From a candidate division LCP-89 bacterium B3_LCP (GTDB lineage: Bacteria > Electryoneota > B3-LCP): a stretch of 64,000 bases of DNA. The DNA is taken from assembly GCA_005223185.1 (NCBI GenBank), contig NJBN01000010.1, forward strand, positions 69,442-133,441, in the 5' to 3' direction. Positions 41,934-53,449 of the stretch are shown here, piece after piece (the first letter of the stretch is position 1; the number at the start of each line of letters is the position of its first letter). The position numbers and the translations under genes were made by a program. Below the pieces are notes generated by a model, which saw nothing but the letters and a program-made list of their open reading frames with translations, was not told where the DNA came from and searched no databases.

Positions 41934-43910
41934 ATGAGACGGTCATTTACAGCATTCATCCTTATAGCCATTCTGACCAGCATATCATCAGCGCAGCTTT
42001 CCGGTCCCTTGAGTGGTACTTATGGTCCCGGGAGTTTTGCCATTATCGGTGATATTTCCGTACTGGAGGGTGATTCTCTGGTAATTTTACCGGGTACCAG
42101 TTTCCTCTTTGGCAGTTACACATCGCTGAATTTCGAGGTTTACGGTTATCTGTATGCTGTGGGCACGGAAGCGGACAGCATTTACCTGATGCCGGAAATT
42201 CCTGCTTATTCCTGGCATGGCGTGGATTTCAACGATTCCTGCGACGATTCCAGCAGGTTGGGATACTGCCAGATCAGCGGCAGTAACGCCAGCGGCGTGG
42301 ACTGTTTCAGTTCCGGACCGACTATCGCTAACTGCTCTATATACGACAATACAGGTAATTTTGGTGGGGGACTATACAGCAGCAATGGAGGCAGTCCCAA
42401 GATTTATGATTGTGTCGTCAGTGGCAACGCCAGCAACGTTTGCGGCGCAGGCATGTGGGCCTCATCATCGGATATAGTAATCGATAATTGCATTTTCACC
42501 GGCAACAATGCGGGCAATTCTGCTGGTGGGATTTACTGTTACCAGTCTTCCGCGCTAATCACCAACTGTACGGTAACTGAAAACACATCCACAGCCGGTG
42601 CGGGAGGGATCTTCTGTCGTGGCACGAATCAAGTCATTTCCAATTGTACTATATCAGGTAATTCCACAGAAACCATTGGCGGAGGGATATGCTGCAATAA
42701 CGCCACTACGGTGATCGATCACTGCACAATAACCGATAATTACGCGGGAATCGCCGGTGGTGGGATAGAGGCTTACATCTCCACGCCAACGATTGAGAAC
42801 TGTACTATAAGTGGAAACATGACACCAGGCGCTGGCGGTGGTATAGAGAGTTACGATTCCAGTCCGATAATCATCAACACCATCGTGGAAGGAAACTTCG
42901 GTCAGGGTGGTATATACTTCTTCAATGGATTGGGCGCTGATGTCACTTACTGCGACTTCAATGATAACGAAGGTGGAGATTTCATCGGCTACTATTTACC
43001 GGAGCTGGGTCAAATCACTGCGGTCAACGCTAACGGTGATTCTTGCGATATGTTCTGCAATATCTTCGAAGATCCTGTGTTTTATGCAACATCCGGTGAT
43101 TCGGCATATTTTCTAAATCCCGATTCACCCTGTATAGACGCGGGTGATCCTGATCCTCAATATACCGATCCTGACGGAACCGTTGCAGACATCGGTGCTC
43201 ACTATTATCACCAGGAGAGCACTTCACCGATAACCATCACGCTCACTCCCTACAACCCACCGATTACAATCCCTGCTGCTGGCGGAAGTTTAGATTACAA
43301 TATAGGCTTAAGCAACAACGAACCTGCAGCGCAGAATTTCGATCTATGGATTATGGTGATATTACCTAACGGAACTCAGTATGGTCCAGTATTGGGACCG
43401 GTGGATCTGACTCTCGATGGTAATACTTCAGTTGCTCGCGACCGCAACCAGGTCGTTCCTGGCAATGCTCCTGAAGGGACTTATACTTATGAAGGCCGGG
43501 TGGGAATTTACCCGGACATCGTGTGGGATACAGACAGCTTCCCATTTGAGAAGCTGGGAACAGACTTCAGCGGAAATGCCACTGGCTGGTTCAACAGCGG
43601 GGAGGAATTCCATTCAATCGAGGAGACATATACAGAAGCGAACCCGGACGATCTGCCTCTGTTATCAGCCTATCCTAATCCCTTCAATCTATCCACAGTA
43701 TTTGGCTTTACTCTACGGCAGGATGCCTATATCGAACTATCGCTTTTCGATATAGCGGGCAATCTCGTTTGCACAGTTGAGGAGGGTAATTTTCTACAGG
43801 GATACCATGAGATCAGCTTTGATGCCACTGACTTATCATCAGGGATTTATGTAAGCAGATTAAGGGCTGAAAATACCTGTATCAGTAGCAGGGTGATCTT
43901 GATAAAGTGA
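41934..43910 (+). CDS. Secreted right-handed beta-helix protein with T9SS domain (no in-frame UGA)
   Basis: A 658-aa protein: signal peptide 1-20 (MRRSFTAFILIAILTSISSA), then about ten parallel beta-helix coils (about 110-340) of the form NCTISGN...GGGI, an Ig-like region near 430-540, and a T9SS sorting domain from LLSAYPNPFNLSTVF to the end. A purine-rich GAGAGAGGAA precedes the ATG. It is a paralogue of the three TGA-containing genes that follow. It aligns with them through NGDSCDMFCNIFEDPVF and NPDSPCIDAGDP, but at the place of their TGA it simply reads NFGQGGIYFFNG, without the extra loop and without cysteine. Probably an extracellular adhesin or polysaccharide-binding protein. Confidence 0.88.
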   Translation: MRRSFTAFILIAILTSISSAQLSGPLSGTYGPGSFAIIGDISVLEGDSLVILPGTSFLFGSYTSLNFEVYGYLYAVGTEADSIYLMPEIPAYSWHGVDFNDSCDDSSRLGYCQISGSNASGVDCFSSGPTIANCSIYDNTGNFGGGLYSSNGGSPKIYDCVVSGNASNVCGAGMWASSSDIVIDNCIFTGNNAGNSAGGIYCYQSSALITNCTVTENTSTAGAGGIFCRGTNQVISNCTISGNSTETIGGGICCNNATTVIDHCTITDNYAGIAGGGIEAYISTPTIENCTISGNMTPGAGGGIESYDSSPIIINTIVEGNFGQGGIYFFNGLGADVTYCDFNDNEGGDFIGYYLPELGQITAVNANGDSCDMFCNIFEDPVFYATSGDSAYFLNPDSPCIDAGDPDPQYTDPDGTVADIGAHYYHQESTSPITITLTPYNPPITIPAAGGSLDYNIGLSNNEPAAQNFDLWIMVILPNGTQYGPVLGPVDLTLDGNTSVARDRNQVVPGNAPEGTYTYEGRVGIYPDIVWDTDSFPFEKLGTDFSGNATGWFNSGEEFHSIEETYTEANPDDLPLLSAYPNPFNLSTVFGFTLRQDAYIELSLFDIAGNLVCTVEEGNFLQGYHEISFDATDLSSGIYVSRLRAENTCISSRVILIK

Positions 43911-44070: not shown

Positions 44071-45630
44071 ATGAAGAAAGTCTTAATGCTAACGCTTGCA
44101 TTAACGTTTCTGTCTCTCACCGCATATGGAGCAACACTGTTAGTGCCGTCTCAATATACCACGATTCAGGCGGCGATAAATGCTTCCAGTGATGGAGATA
44201 CAGTTTTGGTAGCAAGCGGAACCTACACGGGTGAAGGTAACAGGAACCTCGATTTCTGGGGACGTGCCATTGTGGTGATGTCCGAAAACGGCCCGCTGAA
44301 CACCGATATTATCTGTGATAATAGCGGCCGAGGGCTTTATTTCCATTCAGGTGAAACCAGCTCTTCTGAGTTCCAGGGCTTCACGATTGCAGGCGGGAGT
44401 TCAGCCTATGGTGGTGGTATAAATATCACCAATGCCAGTCCGTACATCCACCACTGCATAATCTGGAATAATTCCAGTGCCAACAGCTACGGTGGCGGTG
44501 TATATATCACCAATGGAAGCCCCATTATCGAGCACTGTACCATCTCAGGTAACTCCTCCAAGTACGGTGGTGGTGTTTATGCTGCTGCCTCGAATATGGA
44601 GTTCAATTCGAATATCGTGTCTAATAACACGGCATCTGGTTGAGGCAGCCTCTGCAGTGGGATCTACTGCGCTTCTGGAAGTCCAACCATAACTTACAAC
44701 GACATCAACAACACTGGTGGCAATTTCTACGGTGGCGCCGTTCCTGCAGGAGCTGGCACCATAACCACCACTAACTACAACGGCGATCCCTGTGATCAAT
44801 ACTTTAACATCTTCATGGATCCTGCTTTCATCGGAGTCAGTGGCGATTTCCGGCTGTCCGAAAATTCACCGTGCATCGACGCCGGTGATCCGGCATTGCC
44901 AAATGACCCGGACAATACCATCAACGACCAGGGAGCCGTTTACTTCTTAGCACCTTGCGTTCAGTGTACTACTACCCCTGAAAATCCGCCAATCTTCATT
45001 CCTGCTACCGGTGGAAGTTTCAATTTTACCATAGAGCTCGAAAATATCTGCGACAGCTTAGTAGTCGTTGACGTCTGGACGGACGTCACGCTTCCCAACG
45101 GATCTCCCTATGGTCCGATAATTCTACGTACTGGAATGTCTCTGCCGGTTGGTACACTTATCACCAGAGACCTCACTCAGGATGTTCCTGCAGCAGCGCC
45201 TTCAGGTTACTATACCTACAGGTTCGCTGCGGGCACCTACCCGAGTGACGTAATTTCCGATGATACCTTCAACTTCGGAAAGGTAGGGAATGACGGCGTC
45301 TCCGGACCTGGTGGTGAATGGATGCTTTCCGGATGGGAAGAAGATTTAGTGCAGACAGTGGCACCGTCTGATTACGGTCTATCGTCTGCTTATCCGAATC
45401 CCTTCAATCCCGAAACCAAATTGACATTCACCTTGCCACAAGCCGGTGAAGTTTCGCTGTCAGTTTATGACCTCTCAGGTCGCGAAGTAGCCACGCTCTA
45501 CGACGGTTACTATCCTTCCGGAAGTCATGAAGCGATTTTCAACGCACAAGGCTTGACCAGCGGTGTTTATTTCATCCGCTTAGCAACCGGTGATTTCCAG
45601 CAGACACGGAAGTTGATGCTGCTGAAGTAG
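44071..45630 (+). CDS. Candidate selenoprotein: secreted beta-helix protein with in-frame UGA, paralogue 1
   Basis: I read one gene of 520 codons with TGA at 44641 (codon 191) translated, probably as selenocysteine. Signal peptide 1-20 (MKKVLMLTLALTFLSLTAYG), then LLVPSQYTTIQAAINASSDG, the usual start of DUF1565-type beta-helix proteins, coils to about residue 250, an Ig-like domain, and a T9SS domain from YPNPFNPETKL to the end. After the TGA the frame stays open (GSLCSGIYCASGSPTITYND) into the sorting domain. Stopping at TGA would leave a secreted half-helix without sorting signal, and the second half would have no signal peptide. A hairpin starts 10 nt after the TGA. Cysteines follow at +4 and +9. 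Translation as Trp, or a real split gene, are the alternatives. Confidence 0.75.
44641..44670 (+). promoter_or_regulatory. In-frame UGA and SECIS-like hairpin, paralogue 1
   Basis: TGA 44641-44643, 10 bases, then stem GCAGT (44654-44658) / ACTGC (44666-44670) around GGGATCT. With G-U and G-C pairs inside the loop the stem lengthens to GCAGTGG / CTACTGC with the 3-nt loop GAT, which begins 17 nt after the UGA and has G first. This fits the known limits for bacterial SECIS elements. Confidence 0.7.
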
Positions 45631-45661
45631 GGTAGAAAACAGAGAATAGGAGACAGAAATT

Positions 45662-45693
45662 GGGGCTGTCCTGAAGAGGTCAGCCTCTTTTAT
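45662..45693 (+). terminator. Terminator after UGA-gene paralogue 1
   Basis: GGGGCTG / CAGCCTC stem around TCCTGAAGAGGT, then TTTTATT. It is homologous to the terminators after paralogues 2 and 3. Confidence 0.75.
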
Positions 45694-45853
45694 TATCCCG
45701 GCAGAAGTTCGGATGTATTTCAGGCAGCTTTTTCACTTATATTCTAAAGAGCCCTCCTTTCTATGATGCAATTAAGAATATTGTTGACTTTGAATTGAAA
45801 TGGGGTTACCTTATCATGGATAGGGTAGAACTTTACACATGGGGAGTTAGAGA

Positions 45854-47338
45854 ATGAAAAAAATAATCATAGTAGTGATGGTTCTCGCTTTAGTAGCTAC
45901 GAGCGCTACTGCCACGGTTCTTTCCGTTCCTGATTCTTATTCTACCATACAAGCAGGAATAAACGCTGCCAACGAAGGGGACACGGTTATAGTAGCCGAT
46001 GGCGTTTATGAGGGGACTGGAAACTGCGCAATCAACTATTACGGCAAATCCATCGTGGTTATGTCAGAAAACGGACCTGATGACTGCATTATCACTTGCG
46101 GTGGTCAAGCGCAGGGTTTTATTTTCATTTCCGGTGAGACGAATGTTGCCGTCCTTCAAGGATTTACGGTAACCAGCGGTTCAGCGATCAATGGCGGTGG
46201 GATTCACATAGCTAATTCAAGTCCCACAATTATGCGCTGTATTTTCTGGAATAACAACGCTGGTAATGGTGGCGGTGTTTACGTGAACAGTGGAGACCCG
46301 CGATTCATCAACTGTACTATCTGCCAGAATTCGGCTACTAGTGGCGGCGCTATCTATCTGGTGAATTCAGATATGGTAATAAATAGCTGCATTATAGCTC
46401 AGAATTCGGCATCCGGTTGAGGCAGCCAATGCAGTGGGATCTACTGCGTATCCGGAAACCCAACCATCACCTACAATGACATAGACAACAGCGGCGGTAA
46501 CTTCTATGGAGCCAGCATACCGCCGGGTGCAGGCACCATCACCACCACCAACAATAATGGCGATCCATGCGATCAATACTTCAATATTTTCCTGAATCCC
46601 GAATTTGAGGGTGGAACCAGCACTTTCGCTCTGGCGACCACGTCTCCCTGCAGGGATGCTGGACATCCTCAACTGCCACTTGATCCCGATGCCACCATCG
46701 CGGATATCGGCGCACTTTACTATCTTCCATCTGCAGTTGTAGGTACATCCACTATCCAGCATTTGTTCGGTGCGGTAACCGTGGGACAGGATTTGACCCT
46801 ACCGCTGACCATCTACAATTACGGCGAACTGGAGCTGGTTATCTACGATGTATTTACCAGCGATCCCTGTTACACTACCGATTACAATGAAGCAGATAGC
46901 CTTGTTGCAGCCGGGGATAGTCTGGGAATCAATGTAACGTTCACACCAACTGAAGCGGGGCCGTATATCGAGACCCTCACCATCGAAAACAACGATGAAA
47001 CGGTTGAGGTGGGATTACTGGGCATAGGTGAAGGTTCTGCAGGTATCACTCCGGTAGAAGTTGATAACCAGCCGGATAGATTTGCACTTTATCCACCTTA
47101 CCCCAATCCCTTCAATCCGGAGACTACCATCAGTTACTCATTACCGATGGCGGGAATGGTAAACCTGTCCGTGTACGATATTTCAGGCAGCAGAGTTGCC
47201 AATCTGGTCAATGGCTGGCGCCTTGTGGGAACACACGAGCTAACTTTCGATGCATCAAAATTGTCTGATGGTGTGTATATCGCCAGGCTCATCGTTGGTG
47301 ATTTCCAGCAGACACGGAAGTTGATGTTGGTGAAGTAA
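45854..47338 (+). CDS. Candidate selenoprotein: secreted beta-helix protein with in-frame UGA, paralogue 2
   Basis: One gene of 495 codons with TGA at 46418 (codon 189). Signal peptide 1-20 (MKKIIIVVMVLALVATSATA), then LSVPDSYSTIQAGINAANEG, beta-helix coils to about 250, a different middle domain (residues about 295-395, with TIENNDETVEVGLLGIG, resembling abnormal-spindle/Ig-type repeats) and a T9SS domain from YPPYPNPFNPETT to KLMLVK. The frame after the TGA reads GSQCSGIYCVSGNPTITYND without a stop for more than 300 codons. The middle domain differs from paralogue 1 while the UGA region is the same, so the UGA segment is conserved beyond recent duplication. A TTGACT-like promoter (45784) precedes it. 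Confidence 0.75.
46418..46447 (+). promoter_or_regulatory. In-frame UGA and SECIS-like hairpin, paralogue 2
   Basis: TGA 46418-46420, 10 bases, then GCAGT (46431-46435) / ACTGC (46443-46447) around GGGATCT. Sequence and spacing equal those in the other two genes. Confidence 0.7.
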
Positions 47339-47368
47339 TTGCAAGATACAAGTTGTATTTCATGAATT

Positions 47369-47403
47369 AGAGGCTGTCCTGAAAAGGTCAGCCTCTTTTT
47401 TTT
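47369..47403 (+). terminator. Terminator after UGA-gene paralogue 2
   Basis: AGAGGCTG / CAGCCTCT perfect 8-bp stem, then a run of T. Confidence 0.85.
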
Positions 47404-47449
47404 ATGCGAAAGGGAGATGTAAAAAACTGCAAAATGTGAAAAATATTAC

Positions 47450-47478
47450 TTGACATACGCTTAAAAATTCCTTATTTT
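47450..47478 (+). promoter_or_regulatory. Promoter of the HTH regulator gene
   Basis: TTGACA (47450-47455), 17 bp, TATTTT (47473-47478), 60 bp before ATG 47539. Confidence 0.7.
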
Positions 47479-47538
47479 ACATAAAACACATAAAATCCAT
47501 AATATCACTATAAACCAGAAAGCCCTCTCTCTAAAACT

Positions 47539-48297
47539 ATGAGTGAATTTCTCACAACTGGAAAAGCTGCTGCACTTTGTTCCGTAACACCGGATACCGT
47601 GCTCAAATGGGTGAAGGCGGGCAAGATCCCTGCCAAACGCACTGCCGGCGGACACTGCCGCATTCGGAGGGGGGATTTATTCGCGCTTCTCAAGCAGATG
47701 GATGATCAGCAGCTATCAGTTATTGAAGATGATCGCCAGTTTAAGTTTTGCTGGGAATTTTACTCTGAAACGGAAGAGATCCAGGCTGAATGTAGTCAGT
47801 GCATCGTGTACAGGTCGCGTGCGCATCGGTGCTATGAAATGAGTCAACTTCCTTATGAGAACGGACACGCAAAACTTCACTGCCAGGAATCTTGTGAAAA
47901 TTGTGGCTACTATCATCTTGTAAGATGGCAGAATCAGAATATCCTCGTAATCACGGAACAGCATTCATTACAAACAGAGTTGGAAGATGGTACCAGCCTA
48001 AAACAGTATAACCTTTGCTTCACGGACAGCGAGTATAAATGCTCCATGCTGATGGAAGACTATCGTCCCGACTATATAATCTTAGATTGTTCGATAGGAT
48101 CAGGTAGAGTCTGGCACTTTGTACGGAATATTGCAGCAGATCCTCGCATCCCGTTCGTCAAGATTGTATTAGTTGGGGAAGGGTATGAATTCCCTCAGGA
48201 TTGTGAGAAAGAGATATTTGCTCAGGTTGAAAGCCCATTAACCAGAGTAACATTAATGAAGCTTTTAGGAGCTTCGAATCAGAATTCCTACGATTGA
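47539..48297 (+). CDS. Excisionase-type HTH protein with cysteine-rich centre and receiver-like end
   Basis: A 252-aa probable regulator. Residues 4-52 are an excisionase/MerR-like helix-turn-helix (LTTGKAAALCSVTPDTVLKW then GGHCRIRRGDL). Residues about 68-125 contain nine cysteines in patterns such as ECSQC and CQESCENCG, suggesting a metal or Fe-S sensor. Residues about 135-245 resemble a receiver domain with PDYIILDCSIGSG, in which the aspartate of a phosphorylation site may be kept. The gene precedes the DsrC/DsrMK operon by a 334-bp structured gap on the same strand, so it may control that operon in response to redox or metal state; that link is inference. Confidence 0.75.
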   Translation: MSEFLTTGKAAALCSVTPDTVLKWVKAGKIPAKRTAGGHCRIRRGDLFALLKQMDDQQLSVIEDDRQFKFCWEFYSETEEIQAECSQCIVYRSRAHRCYEMSQLPYENGHAKLHCQESCENCGYYHLVRWQNQNILVITEQHSLQTELEDGTSLKQYNLCFTDSEYKCSMLMEDYRPDYIILDCSIGSGRVWHFVRNIAADPRIPFVKIVLVGEGYEFPQDCEKEIFAQVESPLTRVTLMKLLGASNQNSYD

Positions 48298-48363
48298 TAT
48301 ACAGTAATGGCATAGGAAGATCACAAGCCAAATGTGAGGAGTCAGTACTGGTAGAATAGAGTC

Positions 48364-48536
48364 AGGAGGGTATATAGAGAAGCCCGACGGGTTTGCTGGA
48401 GCCACCAACCTCCCGTCGAGCTATGGTGCAGTTCATCAGGGTTCCGAACTCTGTTCGGGATACCCTGCTTCACCGCACTTTAATGTACAAAAAAGCAGGT
48501 TCTGAAGTCAAGCTTTAATCGTATTAATACCCTCCT
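48364..48536. other. Structured 173-bp element ahead of the DsrC-like operon
   Basis: Closed by a perfect 10-bp inverted repeat AGGAGGGTAT (48364-48373) / ATACCCTCCT (48527-48536). Inside are a hairpin CGACGGG / CCCGTCG (48385-48418) and a longer one built on CAGGGT-CCGAAC / GTTCGG-ACCCTG (about 48437-48468) flanked by GGTGCAGT / ACCGCAC. On the minus strand there is also a promoter-like TTGACT-18-TACATT. It could be a leader RNA, a small RNA gene or a mobile palindrome. I match it to no known riboswitch. The rest of the 334-bp gap (48298-48631) shows nothing more. Confidence 0.5.
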
Positions 48537-48631
48537 CATTACCTTTAAGTCCTATAAATGCACGTGTGGTGGACACCAATCCCAGGATAGCTATATACCA
48601 CAAAATCCTTAGTAAAAAGTTAGGAGGAGAA

Positions 48632-48943
48632 ATGGACACCGCTGACAATCAGAACAATCAAGAGACCATTGATGGTTACGTAAAAGAGATGTCCAATTGG
48701 AGTCGCGAGCTGGCCAAAGAGCTTGCCGCCAGGAATGATATTGGTCCTCTTACAGATGATCACTGGAAAGTGATTGAACATATCAAGGAATACTATCAGG
48801 ATTACCATCAGGGACCACCAATCCTCAAACTGTGTAGAGACACGGGATTTACCAGGAAATATATCTGCGAACTATTTCCTTGCGGCTATGTTCGTGGCGC
48901 GTTCAGATTGGCTGGACTACCCAGACCTGCGGGCTGCATCTAA
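48632..48943 (+). CDS. DsrC/TusE-family sulfur-carrier protein keeping only the C-terminal cysteine
   Basis: A 103-aa DsrC/TusE-family protein; ATG 48632 is chosen because AGGAGG lies four bases upstream. The helical core (DDHWKVIEHIKEYYQDYH) and C-terminal arm ICELFPCGYVRGAFRLAG are typical. The penultimate cysteine (Cys102 in LPRPAGCI, CysA of DsrC) is kept, but the second redox cysteine (CysB, in GAC of DsrC) is Phe91. Extra cysteines are Cys68, Cys79 and Cys84. In DsrC the two cysteines form an intramolecular trisulfide that is reduced by DsrMK; with only CysA this protein can act as persulfide carrier (as TusE) or pair with another protein. Leads the operon with DsrM, DsrK and tandem DsrC-like genes. 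Confidence 0.92.
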   Translation: MDTADNQNNQETIDGYVKEMSNWSRELAKELAARNDIGPLTDDHWKVIEHIKEYYQDYHQGPPILKLCRDTGFTRKYICELFPCGYVRGAFRLAGLPRPAGCI

Positions 48944-49024
48944 GTTGATAACAATTGTGATTTGAGTAATTCAGTATAGGCTATGGATGAAATCGTAGCC
49001 GTATATAAATGAAAGGAATGAATC

Positions 49025-49726
49025 TTGAGTAACCTAATCGGATTGATACTACCCTTCATCACGGTGCTTATTTTCGTGATCGGAATGGGATACAGGTTTT
49101 ATATCTGGACAAAAACACCCCAACCGGGAAAGATGACCCTTTTCCCCACGCCAACTCCAGGCGGTGGAACCTTCATAAGCATAATTAAGGAATCGTTCTT
49201 CTTTCCGGGACTCTTCAAGGGTGATAGATCGCTGTGGATTGCTGCCTGGGTTTTTCATGCTTCCCTGGCATTGATCATCTTAGGGCATCTGCGTGTGTTT
49301 TCAGGATTCTTCGATCGAATTCTGATCAATATGGGCGTTGACGTTGACTTGATGAGCTCCACGGGTGGGGGTGCGGCGGGGATTCTCATCCTGATAACCG
49401 CGATCTGGTTGTTGCTGAGAAGGTTCGCTTTAAGGCGGGTCAGAGAGATCTCCAATGCCTCCGACTTCCTGGCGCTCCTCTTAGTTTTGGCGATTATTTT
49501 TACCGGCAATTCGATGAGATTCGGGGAACACTTTGATCTCGAGATCACCAGAAATTACTTCGCTCATCTGTTTACGTTTTCCTTCGCCGAAATGACGCTA
49601 CCTCAGAGTGGTATATTCTGGACTCATTTCTTCTTAGTCCAGTTGCTTATAATGTACATTCCCTTCAGCAAGATTCTGCATTTCGGAGGGATTTTCTTCA
49701 CACAGTCGTTAATCCAGAAATCATAG
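49025..49726 (+). CDS. DsrM/HdrE/TmcC-type cytochrome b membrane subunit
   Basis: A 233-aa membrane protein of the nitrate-reductase-gamma family, with about five hydrophobic segments (8-26, 75-95, 110-130, 155-172, 200-222) and membrane histidines (FHASLALIILGHLRVF, FAHLFTF) suited to ligate heme b. It should take electrons from, or give them to, menaquinol and exchange them with the Fe-S partner encoded next. It starts at TTG 49025 with AAAGGAA upstream. The operon order DsrC-like, this gene, DsrK-like, tandem DsrC-like indicates a complex that reduces or oxidises protein thiols. No sulfite reductase (DsrAB) gene is in the window. Confidence 0.88.
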   Translation: MSNLIGLILPFITVLIFVIGMGYRFYIWTKTPQPGKMTLFPTPTPGGGTFISIIKESFFFPGLFKGDRSLWIAAWVFHASLALIILGHLRVFSGFFDRILINMGVDVDLMSSTGGGAAGILILITAIWLLLRRFALRRVREISNASDFLALLLVLAIIFTGNSMRFGEHFDLEITRNYFAHLFTFSFAEMTLPQSGIFWTHFFLVQLLIMYIPFSKILHFGGIFFTQSLIQKS

Positions 49727-49741
49727 AGAGGGAATCTAACA

Positions 49742-51091
49742 GTGTCAGACGAAAATACTATATCACACGAGAAAGTCCGTGAAGAAGTTATCAACGCTAT
49801 CAAGGCGATTGATAACGGGCCGCAAGTTCTCAAATTATACATGGAGATGTGCGCCAGATGCGGAACTTGTGCTGAGCAGTGTCCTGTTTACTATGGCGAA
49901 CCCACCAAGGAACGCAACCCGGTGCTTCGCTCCGATCTCATTCGCAGCACCTTCAAGAAACACACCACAATTGCAGGTAAGCTTTTAGGCGCTCTGGATG
50001 GAGCGGGTGACTTCGATGGCGATATGGAAAAGTGGGTTACCCAGTTCTACGAATGCACAGGCTGTCGACGTTGCGCCACGTTCTGCCCTTTCGGGATCGA
50101 TAACTCGGTTATCACGCGGAAAGGTCGCGCCATCGCCGATAAACTGGGACTGACACCCGACACCATGAAAAGCGTCGTCAAGACGTCTCTGGAAACCCAC
50201 AATACCGACGGCGCTTCTCCGGAAGCTTTCAAATCTGCAATCGATTTTCTCGAAGAAGAGATGAAGGACGAGCACGGGATCGACATCAAGATTCCCGTCG
50301 ATGTAGAAGGCGCTGAATTCTTCTACGTCCCACCATCGGGCGACGTGTTGGTCAATCCTGAAGCCACTACTGGCATAGCCAAGGTGTTCTACGTACTGGG
50401 GATGCAGGACAACTGGACCATGAGTTCGAAGTGCTTCGATGGCGCAAATTACGGTCTCTTCACCGGCAATGATACTGACATGAAAGCCGATAATAAACCT
50501 TATGTAGATGAGGCAATAAGCCTTGGTTCCAAGTATATGTTCATGGGTGAGTGCGGTCATGCGTACAGAATTATGAAGATGATGATGGAGAAGGGAAAAT
50601 GGTGGGGCGATCTTCCCTTCAAGGTTGTCAACTGCATGGAATGGACCGCAGACCAGATCGAAGCGGGTCGGCTGGAATTCGATAAAAGCAAGAACCCGAT
50701 GCCGGTCACCTATCACGACCCCTGCAACTTTGGGAGGAGTTGCGGGATTGTCGAAGACCCGCGAGTAATCCTCAAAGCTACTTGCCAGGATTTCAGGGAG
50801 ATGTATCCGAACCGTGGTGAAAACTGGTGCTGCGGAGGTGGCGGCGGGCTCTCGGCGATGGATGACATCCACGATTTCAGAATGAATGTGTCGGGTAGAA
50901 AAAAGATGGAACAGGTTAAAGACACCGGAGCAAAATATGTTGCTACAGCATGTTCCAACTGTAAGCGGCAGTTCATGCAGCTAATTGAGTATCATAAAGC
51001 TGACTTCGCCGTGGGCGGCGTCCACGATATGCTCTCCAGAGCGATCATGATTAATGGAAAAGCTGCCGAACGCATTGACTACGAATCGTAG
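49742..51091 (+). CDS. DsrK/HdrD/TmcB-type iron-sulfur protein
   Basis: A 449-aa cytosolic Fe-S protein. Two [4Fe-4S] ferredoxin motifs lie near the N-terminus (CARCGTCAEQCP and CTGCRRCATFCP), each with the full cysteine set. A CCG domain near the C-terminus (HDPCNFGRSCG, NWCCGGGGG, ATACSNCKRQ) should bind the non-cubane cluster that reduces disulfides in HdrB/HdrD and DsrK. The first CCG half seems degenerate (SSKCFDGANYG). It starts at GTG 49742 with GAGGGAA upstream and follows the cytochrome gene after 15 bp. The likely substrate is the DsrC-like proteins encoded on either side, as disulfide, trisulfide or persulfide. Confidence 0.9.
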   Translation: MSDENTISHEKVREEVINAIKAIDNGPQVLKLYMEMCARCGTCAEQCPVYYGEPTKERNPVLRSDLIRSTFKKHTTIAGKLLGALDGAGDFDGDMEKWVTQFYECTGCRRCATFCPFGIDNSVITRKGRAIADKLGLTPDTMKSVVKTSLETHNTDGASPEAFKSAIDFLEEEMKDEHGIDIKIPVDVEGAEFFYVPPSGDVLVNPEATTGIAKVFYVLGMQDNWTMSSKCFDGANYGLFTGNDTDMKADNKPYVDEAISLGSKYMFMGECGHAYRIMKMMMEKGKWWGDLPFKVVNCMEWTADQIEAGRLEFDKSKNPMPVTYHDPCNFGRSCGIVEDPRVILKATCQDFREMYPNRGENWCCGGGGGLSAMDDIHDFRMNVSGRKKMEQVKDTGAKYVATACSNCKRQFMQLIEYHKADFAVGGVHDMLSRAIMINGKAAERIDYES

Positions 51092-51133
51092 GTTCATGCT
51101 GACTTAATACGAACATAATACCGGGGAATAAAC

Positions 51134-51796
51134 TTGAGTAATATTGAACCTGAAACAGTAACTTTTGCAGGAAAAATCTACTCTCTCGATCAGCGGGGAT
51201 TTCTAAAATCCCCGGAACAGTGGGATGAGGATTTTGCTGAAGGTATGGCGGAAGTGCAGGAGATCTACGGCGGTTTGACAGAGAAGCACTGGGATTTGAT
51301 ACATTACATCAGAAGGAAATTCACTGAAGAGGAGACAATCCCCGTTGTGGTTTTAGCCTGCGCCGATAACAATCTAAAGCTAAGCGATCTGAGGTTCCTC
51401 TTTCCCACCGGTTATCATCGCGGCGCTTGCAGGATTGCGGGGATAAACTACGACTTCATGTATAAGACCAATTTCTGGCTCACGTATGAAACCACTACCC
51501 TACAAAAAGAGGAATATAAGCTGACCCATCGTGGGTTTCTGGAAGATTTCAGCAAGTGGGATGAGCGTTTCGCACAGATTATCATCCGTGAATGGAAACT
51601 GCCCGGAGGACTTACAGACAGGCATCGGGAGATCATCAGTTATCTGCGTGATTTTTATGAAAGAATGAAGAACATCCCCACGTTTTTCGAAATGTGCAAA
51701 GCCAATAATTTAGACGTAGATGAGTTCAAAGAGCTATTCCCCGAAGGATACCGGCGGGGAGCATGCCGAATAGCGGGACTGCCGTTTTTCGGGTGA
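51134..51796 (+). CDS. Tandem DsrC-like protein keeping only the upstream cysteine in each half
   Basis: A 220-aa fusion of two DsrC/TusE-family domains (about 8-105 and 126-220). Each has the fold signature and the arm LFPTGYHRGACRIAG or LFPEGYRRGACRIAG, so CysB is kept (Cys99, Cys211). The C-terminal CysA arm (PKPTGCV in DsrC) is absent: the first half runs on as INYDFMYK and the second stops at LPFFG. Both halves also have a cysteine at the same interior place (Cys76 in LACADNN, Cys188 in EMCKANN), matching Cys68 of the 103-aa partner but not canonical DsrC. Start TTG 51134. Together with the 103-aa protein it completes the CysA/CysB pair in trans. Confidence 0.9.
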   Translation: MSNIEPETVTFAGKIYSLDQRGFLKSPEQWDEDFAEGMAEVQEIYGGLTEKHWDLIHYIRRKFTEEETIPVVVLACADNNLKLSDLRFLFPTGYHRGACRIAGINYDFMYKTNFWLTYETTTLQKEEYKLTHRGFLEDFSKWDERFAQIIIREWKLPGGLTDRHREIISYLRDFYERMKNIPTFFEMCKANNLDVDEFKELFPEGYRRGACRIAGLPFFG

Positions 51797-51868
51797 TTCG
51801 ACTGCCAATGTATATCATTAGAAAATTATGCTAAATCCACTAAAATCAAGATGAAAGGAAAGTTAATT

Positions 51869-53449
51869 ATGGTTAGGTTATCTTCAGCGCTGCTCGCTGT
51901 CATGCTTCTGGTTCTGGCTGCAAGCGGTACAACACTACTGGTTCCCAGCCAATATGGCACTATCCAGGCCGGCATTGACGCTGCCAGCAATGGCGATACC
52001 GTTTTGGTAGCAGATGGAACTTATACTGGAACTGGAAATAAAGACTTGGATTTCGGCGGTCGGATTATCGTCGTCATGTCCGAAAACGGACCGGATGTTT
52101 GCATCATCGACTGCGAAAACGACGGTCGTGGATTCTACTTTCACTCCGGTGAAACCGCAGATGCAGTTATTTACGGCTTCATGATCCGTTATGGTTATGC
52201 CAGCAACGGTGGTGGAATCAATGTTACAGATTCCAGTCCCACTATCGATCATTGCATTGTCTGGGATTGTGCCAATGGTGGTACTGCCGGCGGCGGTATC
52301 TACTTGAACAACGGTCATTCACTGATCGTCCACTGCACCGTTAATGATAACTTCTCCGGTCATGGAGGAGGAATTTACGCCATAAACTCGAATATGACGG
52401 TTAGTAGCTGCATCATTTCCGATAACTATTCAACTGGTTGAGGCTCCAATTGCAGTGGGATCTACTGCGTTTCGGGTAATCAAACAGTCGAATATACCTG
52501 CCTTTACAATTCCGGTGGCAACTTCTGGGGTTCAGCCATCCCTGCAGGAGCCGGACAAATCACAACCACTAACAACAATGGCGATCCCTGCGACGTCTAT
52601 TACAACATCTTCCTGGATGAGCAGTTTGTAGGAGCTGGTGATTTTCATCTGCAGCCTAATTCACCCTGCATCGATGCCGGTGATCTGACGCATCTGCCGG
52701 ACCCGGATGCCACCATCTGCGAAATGGGTGCTCTATACTATCCACAATCAGCGCCAGACTTGACTTTAACAATGACACCTCTGGGTACAACTAATTTCCC
52801 GCCAACTGGAGGTCTCTTAGAGTACAATATCGCCGCTCAGAATAACGGAACTTCGACGGAAATCGTGGACATCTGGGTGGACGTATCATTACCTACAGGC
52901 GGTCTGTACGGACCTGTCCTGGGTCCAGTCAGCGATTTCACCATGGCAGGCGGCTTTTCCGCTGATAGAGATCGCGAATTGACCGTTCCCGGTGCAGCGC
53001 CTCCTGGCCCATATTCGCTCAATGGATACTTAGGTGAATACGATCCAGTCAGCCCGATTATCTATGCTGAAGATAGCTTCAACTTCAATAAAGCTTCCTT
53101 CGGTGATGGTGGAGAATGGATCAGCAATTGGTTTGTCGATAGCGGCGAATCGTTCGAGGAGCTGGCTGAAACTGTCAACTCAGTCGAGGTGTACGGTCTG
53201 ATTCAATGCTACCCCAATCCGTTCAATCCGGAGACCCAACTGAACTTCAGTTTACCGGAAAATGGGGAAATATCGTTAATCGTTTACGATATTCAGGGTC
53301 GTGAAGTTGCTACGCTTTACGATGGCTGGTATCAAGCCGGAAGCCACAAAGCAACTTTCAGCGGAGCCGCTCTGCCCACCGGAGTTTACTTCGCCCGCTT
53401 AACTGCAGGCAGCGTCCAGCAGACACAAAAGCTGGTCCTGATGAAGTAG
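51869..53449 (+). CDS. Candidate selenoprotein: secreted beta-helix protein with in-frame UGA, paralogue 3
   Basis: One gene of 527 codons with TGA at 52439 (codon 191). I prefer ATG 51869 (MVRLSSALLAVMLLVLAASG, signal peptide), because AAAGGAAAG lies at a normal distance and the UGA then falls at codon 191 as in paralogue 1. An ATG at 51851 would add six residues. The architecture is the same: LLVPSQYGTIQAGIDAASNG, beta-helix, UGA followed by GSNCSGIYCVSGNQTVEYTC, Ig-like domain with NIAAQNNGTSTEIVDIWVDV, and a T9SS domain from CYPNPFNPETQ to KLVLMK. It begins 72 bp after the tandem DsrC-like gene on the same strand, so it may be co-transcribed with the thiol-redox operon. Confidence 0.75.
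52439..52468 (+). promoter_or_regulatory. In-frame UGA and SECIS-like hairpin, paralogue 3
   Basis: TGA 52439-52441, 10 bases, then GCAGT (52452-52456) / ACTGC (52464-52468) around GGGATCT. The hairpin is identical to those in paralogues 1 and 2, although the ten bases between TGA and stem differ. Confidence 0.7.

Follow-up and report, generated by a model that had tools for sequence, protein, structure and literature searches.

The E. coli-type bacterial selenocysteine (Sec) insertion signal, or SECIS, is a hairpin right after the UGA in which G opens a small apical loop, usually as G[G/U]. The bacterial model whose criteria we applied (PMC13188914, Fig 2A) specifies an apical loop of 3-9 nt with a G within its first two positions ("mostly" G then G/U), a stem of 4-16 bp, a gap of 16-37 nt between UGA and loop, and an energy of at most -7.5 kcal/mol. 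The same 2026 review counts 119 bacterial selenoprotein families and subfamilies; the words "helix", "T9SS" and "secreted" do not occur in its text. In the open-access literature that we searched, the terms "selenoprotein" and "type IX secretion" occurred together in a single, unrelated paper. For Candidate division LCP-89 bacterium B3_LCP, a deep-Sep scan reported four selenoproteins, all of them already known; the authors of that scan state that their filtering may remove proteins that lack Cys homologues (PMC12013277). Photobacterium profundum 3TCK carries two complete selABC operons and two tRNA-Sec genes (PMC5330540).

Here we analyze a 64,000-nucleotide stretch of the B3_LCP genome (the window) containing three members of a beta-helix family with an in-frame UGA. 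The family shares with the E. coli-type SECIS the position of the hairpin, the G that opens a small loop and a spacing within range, but its loop is a GAU triloop, with A after G. Like the UxxC selenoproteins (PMC13188914), it combines a UGA and downstream hairpin with a Cys three residues after Sec, whereas it differs from them in being a putatively exported, multi-copy repeat scaffold for which no Cys homologues were found. Its signal peptide, right-handed beta-helix and C-terminal TIGR04183 domain are those of T9SS type A beta-helix cargo; beyond these it has an extra loop with a predicted Sec and, in most cases, two Cys, and at the mRNA level a SECIS hairpin. The short motif U-G-S-C recalls the UGSC-containing protein NF041046, but five TGA-bearing proteins tested gave no match to that family at E 0.001 and are beta-helices instead. 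As in P. profundum 3TCK, two full Sec gene sets and two tRNA-Sec occur in one bacterium; in LCP-89, by contrast, the two lineages are conserved family-wide, with selA and selB of both in two more families, and their presence goes along with a separate class of hairpin and a new protein family.

Results

Three Beta-Helix Genes Share an In-Frame TGA

A sequence-only reading of the window had proposed three T9SS beta-helix genes with TGA at codons 191, 189 and 191, each followed by about 305-340 open codons into a T9SS sorting domain. Both points held (Table 1), the open frame past the TGA being 328, 305 and 335 codons in genes 1, 2 and 3. The proposed division, with the signal peptide upstream and the sorting domain downstream of the TGA, held as well: the N-terminal parts start with signal-peptide-like residues, and the post-TGA parts score 38-50 bits against TIGR04183, for which the cut-off is 23. 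All three genes show exactly the motif SG-U-GSxCSGIYC, which places Cys at +4 and +9, and the paralogue at 41934 is as described, without TGA, extra loop or either Cys. An ATG at 51851 is a possible alternative start for gene 3. Overall, the earlier observation is confirmed and its interpretation supported, and the phenomenon is larger than was described. No hairpin figured among its observations; we find one after the TGA in all three genes.

Table 1. Features of the three UGA genes and the TGA-free paralogue, in window coordinates (Sec is predicted computationally)
Feature	Position	Strand	Remarks
Putative selenoprotein gene 1	44071..45630	+	519 aa: signal peptide, beta-helix with Sec191 loop, Ig/Fn-like domain, T9SS tail
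Gene 1 in-frame TGA (Sec191)	44641..44643	+	
Gene 1 SECIS-type hairpin	44653..44671	+	TGCAGTGG-GAT-CTACTGCG
Gene 1 T9SS type A sorting domain	45391..45618	+	TIGR04183
Putative selenoprotein gene 2	45854..47338	+	494 aa: beta-helix with Sec189 loop, choice-of-anchor-D-like Ig domain, T9SS tail
Gene 2 in-frame TGA (Sec189)	46418..46420	+	
Gene 2 SECIS-type hairpin	46430..46448	+	
Gene 2 T9SS type A sorting domain	47099..47326	+	
Putative selenoprotein gene 3	51869..53449	+	526 aa: beta-helix with Sec191 loop, T9SS tail
Gene 3 in-frame TGA (Sec191)	52439..52441	+	
Gene 3 SECIS-type hairpin	52451..52469	+	
Gene 3 T9SS type A sorting domain	53210..53437	+	
Contrast paralogue	41934..43910	+	no TGA, loop or loop cysteines

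Between genes 2 and 3 (48566-51796) lie genes for DsrC, DsrM-like, DsrK-like and double DsrC proteins, of the kind associated with thiol/trisulfide electron transfer. These genes may have a functional connection with the Sec proteins.

A SECIS-Type Hairpin Is Conserved as RNA

The hairpin TGCAGTGGGATCTACTGC is identical in genes 1, 2 and 3, and comprises a stem of 7-8 bp closed by the triloop GAU; in each gene TGCAGTGGGATCTACTGCG starts nine nucleotides 3' of the TGA, without a single difference. The distance from UGA to the GAU loop is 17 nt in this subfamily and 20 nt in a larger one. Across the family, all 49 members have the GAU triloop and one of these two spacings, both within the model, while 48 of 49 have 4 bp or more of uninterrupted stem and the energy limit is likewise passed by 48. 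The usual loop pattern G[G/U] is not met, since G is followed by A in all 49.

Covariation was assessed on 35 sites, at which 98% of the cells of the seven-pair stem are paired and 13 cells are changed on both sides. None of 500 shuffles matched the value for paired cells or for double changes, and slid versions of the stem were only 36-67% paired. An earlier test on 14 sites had been positive for paired cells and covariation score but not for the count of double-change pairs; our conclusion rests on the 35-site test, which settled that mixed result. In one member GGNGIR is coded by GGAGGCAACGGGATCCGTTGC and a different member carries GGAGGCGGGATCCGCCTC, examples in which the stem is preserved though protein or codons differ. 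Codon usage and substitution rates were also recorded: GGG-ATC is present in all of the first 14 genes, in which GGG makes up 12% of Gly codons (naive probability 4e-17, ignoring kinship among the genes), and over nine genes synonymous change drops from 0.73-0.78 in the surrounding codons to 0.34 in codons +1 to +11. We note that 45 of the sites were gathered using the GGGATC pattern; genes found by protein profile are independent of it. Apart from the A after the first loop G, the sequence after the UGA is a bacterial-SECIS-type element conserved as RNA.

The Family Extends over Nine Genomes

A profile of the three proteins, run against 39 genomes of the phylum, found homologues with a single TGA at the same site in five of the six genomes of the source family and in one other family. 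A covariance model built from 14 UGA sites matched nine of the 39, adding genes in the sixth genome of the source family and in a third family; outside these three families it gave one weak match (E 0.047). All 21 of the extra matches that we read are beta-helix ORFs running through the TGA, nearly all of them reaching a T9SS-type tail (two run off a contig end), and their usual motif is T-U-G-[ST]-C-GGGGIRC (UxxC motif). With a profile of this UxxC subfamily, the best 32 matches (E up to 4.5e-16) each contain exactly one TGA and all fall in the three families; the next match, at 4e-11, has none. Two further members, with motifs UGIC and UTGC, occur in the TA06 MAG SM23_40, and no T9SS tail was seen in these two. 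A UGA relative was not found in Cloacimonadota NIOZ-UU1, where selB over the cut-off is also absent.

Together these searches give at least 49 UGA beta-helix genes in nine genomes, none with a second stop: 14 in B3_LCP and 2-7 in each of the eight other positive genomes. The family thus spans every genome of the source family, two more families of the phylum and one TA06 genome. Many UGA-free beta-helix T9SS paralogues are present in the same genomes. A scan of 747 kb of the B3_LCP genome for TGA with coding signal on both sides and a hairpin returned 19 sites, at least 11 of which belong to the family, so the in-frame TGA pattern is not a product of chance. One of the 14 UGA beta-helix genes of B3_LCP (L302; genome G000, contig C16, ~55000) lacks its N-terminal part, the frame opening 20 codons before the TGA; it may represent a pseudogene, a frameshift or an assembly error.

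Selection Persists past the TGA

In the codons beyond +11 and before any possible start, pN is 0.21 and pS 0.78 (nine genes), indicating that protein selection continues beyond the TGA. The in-frame UGA is conserved among homologues, with coding sequence on both sides. Apart from these sites, TGA serves as a normal stop codon in this genome: among 377 ORFs of 200 aa or more, it terminates 117 (31%).

Examination of the UGA site in homologues showed that relatives keep TGA and that no Cys-for-Sec homologue is found among them. Prediction software customarily asks for such a homologue, but it does not define a selenoprotein; without one, the usual Sec/Cys exchange test is unavailable for this family. 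The TGA-free relatives inspected lack the entire loop and have no Cys replacing Sec, from which we infer that Sec was gained together with the loop rather than swapped for Cys. We regard it as very likely, and nearly certain as far as computation alone can go, that the UGA of genes 1-3 is read as selenocysteine to give one full-length protein each; selenium itself has not been measured.

Protein Architecture and Export

Members consist of a signal peptide, a beta-helix, an Ig/Fn-like domain (missing from some) and a sorting tail, which scored above the TIGR04183 cut-off in all five members tested. A search for the T9SS core in the stretches read found only PorU-like C25 domains at 55-90 bits, under the 420-bit cut-off. 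Export via T9SS is likely but inferred from sequence, the core machinery being unconfirmed.

In AlphaFold models (mean pLDDT 71 and 77), Sec sits within or beside a turn that joins helix strands; in the UxxC member the loop region has a pLDDT of ~90. Foldseek matched mostly the Ig-like part of gene 1 (to the biofilm scaffold protein RbmA), and for the UxxC member returned weak beta-helix matches (Rhombotarget A, PL6 lyases, Pel9A) and T9SS tails; neither search names a function. A Sec-Cys redox pair on a secreted scaffold had been proposed. The pair holds in 46 of 49 members, which have a vicinal Cys at +3 or +4 (a Cys at the motif end is found in 38 of 49), while its redox role remains an inference. 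The three exceptions (UGPN, UNTSG and UGSNG) show that a Sec-Cys pair is not obligatory.

Two Lineages of Sec Machinery

Absence of Sec machinery would have been the main ground for refuting the Sec reading. A search of the B3_LCP genome for selA, selB, selD and tRNA-Sec found all of them, so this objection fails: there are two selA, two selB over the cut-off, two tRNA-Sec (UCA), both exceeding the Rfam cut-off as tRNA-Sec, and one selD, which itself holds an in-frame TGA. A search of the Fdh family found few Sec genes.

Trees of SelA, SelB and tRNA-Sec each split into two deep, concordant lineages, which we call type I and type II. Type I is the sole lineage in family f2 and type II in f3-f6; both occur in f1, to which B3_LCP belongs, and, for SelA and SelB, in f7 and f8. 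UGA beta-helix genes are confined to these double-lineage families and TA06, and single-lineage genomes, TA06 apart, have none.

In stretches of type I-only genomes, candidate selenoproteins are mostly exported and nearly all have a GAU triloop; they include carboxypeptidase-regulatory-like proteins with a T9SS tail, FG-GAP proteins with a T9SS-type tail, and redoxins. The SelD hairpin of these genomes has AGUUG or AGUUA, not GAU. The type II-only genomes sampled show GGA/GGU loops in SelD and GUC/GUU in a molybdopterin oxidoreductase, with no GAU. B3_LCP itself has GAU in the beta-helix genes, one FG-GAP T9SS protein and one redoxin, and GGA in SelD. Because GAU loops are present in type I-only genomes and absent from the sampled type II-only genomes, we assign the beta-helix family to system I by inference. 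In the SelD protein tree the source family groups with type I families. This is at odds with the SelD loop types, so that SelB specificity is only inferred, and assignment by SelD alone was dropped for the same disagreement. The TA06 SelB does not fall clearly within type I and does not help to settle the assignment. In B3_LCP (G000), at C18:55476-56613, a TGA-bearing selD with the GGA loop of type II-only genomes is followed immediately, in the same orientation, by the type I tRNA-Sec.

Other Selenoprotein Candidates

Further in-frame TGA genes with GAU hairpins were observed. An FG-GAP protein with a T9SS tail (L125:6500-8146, minus strand, contig C18 of B3_LCP; VSYGUCIGATPRIVD) would, judging by sequence, represent a second exported selenoprotein family, with a relative at L358:15628-16953. 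A carboxypeptidase-regulatory-like T9SS-tail protein (L358:13111-15435, also L258, L259, L261 and L263; YYCPGUGGG) is found in at least five family f2 genomes. ResA/AhpC-TSA-like redoxins occur at L123:2007-2927 (minus strand), L358:18207-19523 and L358:19619-19999, with motifs GUSFC, TUEIC and QUPQC.

Discussion

The explanation that we consider likely as a whole is hairpin-directed Sec in a T9SS-exported scaffold bearing a surface Sec-Cys redox loop; export and redox role are inferred, and catalytic residues and substrates are unknown. Each gene would yield a single full-length protein, its UGA decoded as Sec under direction of the hairpin, which would be read by type I SelB and type I tRNA-Sec, one of the two Sec systems. 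The protein would exit through the Sec export route and then T9SS, and the Sec-Cys loop (UGSxC or UxxC) would sit on the rim of the right-handed beta-helix. Such a loop would provide a redox site, displayed at the surface or bound to the matrix, whose substrates would be thiols, disulfides, peroxides or polysulfides; the additional Cys would be the resolving residue.

One objection is that translation stops at the UGA and what follows is an independent or defunct frame, making these two-piece genes or pseudogenes. Ordinary annotation would indeed give a 190-residue ORF, and gene 1 has an ATG 58 codons past the TGA. Against this, the same TGA without a second stop recurs in 49 genes of nine genomes, protein selection is already seen between the TGA and the first possible start, the TGA separates signal peptide from sorting domain, and the hairpin covaries; we regard termination as all but excluded. 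That UGA encodes Trp, Gly or some unknown residue instead of Sec, via a suppressor or a context-dependent code, gains some room from the lack of a Cys homologue that would fix residue identity. It is very unlikely given that TGA ends 31% of ORFs, that both UCA tRNAs score as tRNA-Sec, that SelD has its own in-frame TGA, and that the hairpin fits the SECIS model.

Two further alternatives accept Sec and remain possible. Sec may have a non-redox role, as a soft metal or metalloid ligand or as half of a permanent selenosulfide crosslink by which a surface protein is made stiffer or fixed in place. Consistent with this, the three members without an adjacent Cys still keep Sec and hairpin, the scaffold is repetitive, and the next domain of gene 1 resembles RbmA; on the other side stand the 46 of 49 members whose Cys at +3/+4 recalls the layout of UxxC redox motifs, and the thiol-disulfide redoxins among the other GAU-loop selenoproteins. 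Alternatively, system II, or both systems indiscriminately, could insert Sec, the second being mere redundancy. The tRNA-Sec of both lineages carry UCA and SECIS loops vary within one lineage; yet SelA, SelB and tRNA-Sec keep two concordant lineages, and the sampled type II-only genomes show GGA, GGU, GUC and GUU without GAU and lack the beta-helix family.

Returning to insertion by system I, a bolder reading is that each cell runs two separate Sec insertion systems, each with its own SelA, SelB, tRNA-Sec and hairpin class, system I (GAU) serving largely an exported selenoproteome of T9SS beta-helix, FG-GAP, carboxypeptidase-regulatory-like and redoxin proteins. This division of labor is inferred, and at present we lean slightly against it.

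Compared with PMC12013277 and PMC13188914, the UGA beta-helix proteins represent a previously unlisted family of secreted selenoproteins, which is apt to escape current prediction software because it has no Cys homologues. For B3_LCP, they add at least 14 selenoproteins to the four previously reported (PMC12013277), and they extend selenium chemistry to T9SS-exported, repeat-built proteins, which were not listed there before. With two conserved Sec systems and different loops, orthogonal readings of UGA as Sec within one cell become testable, a possibility that may also interest genetic-code engineers.
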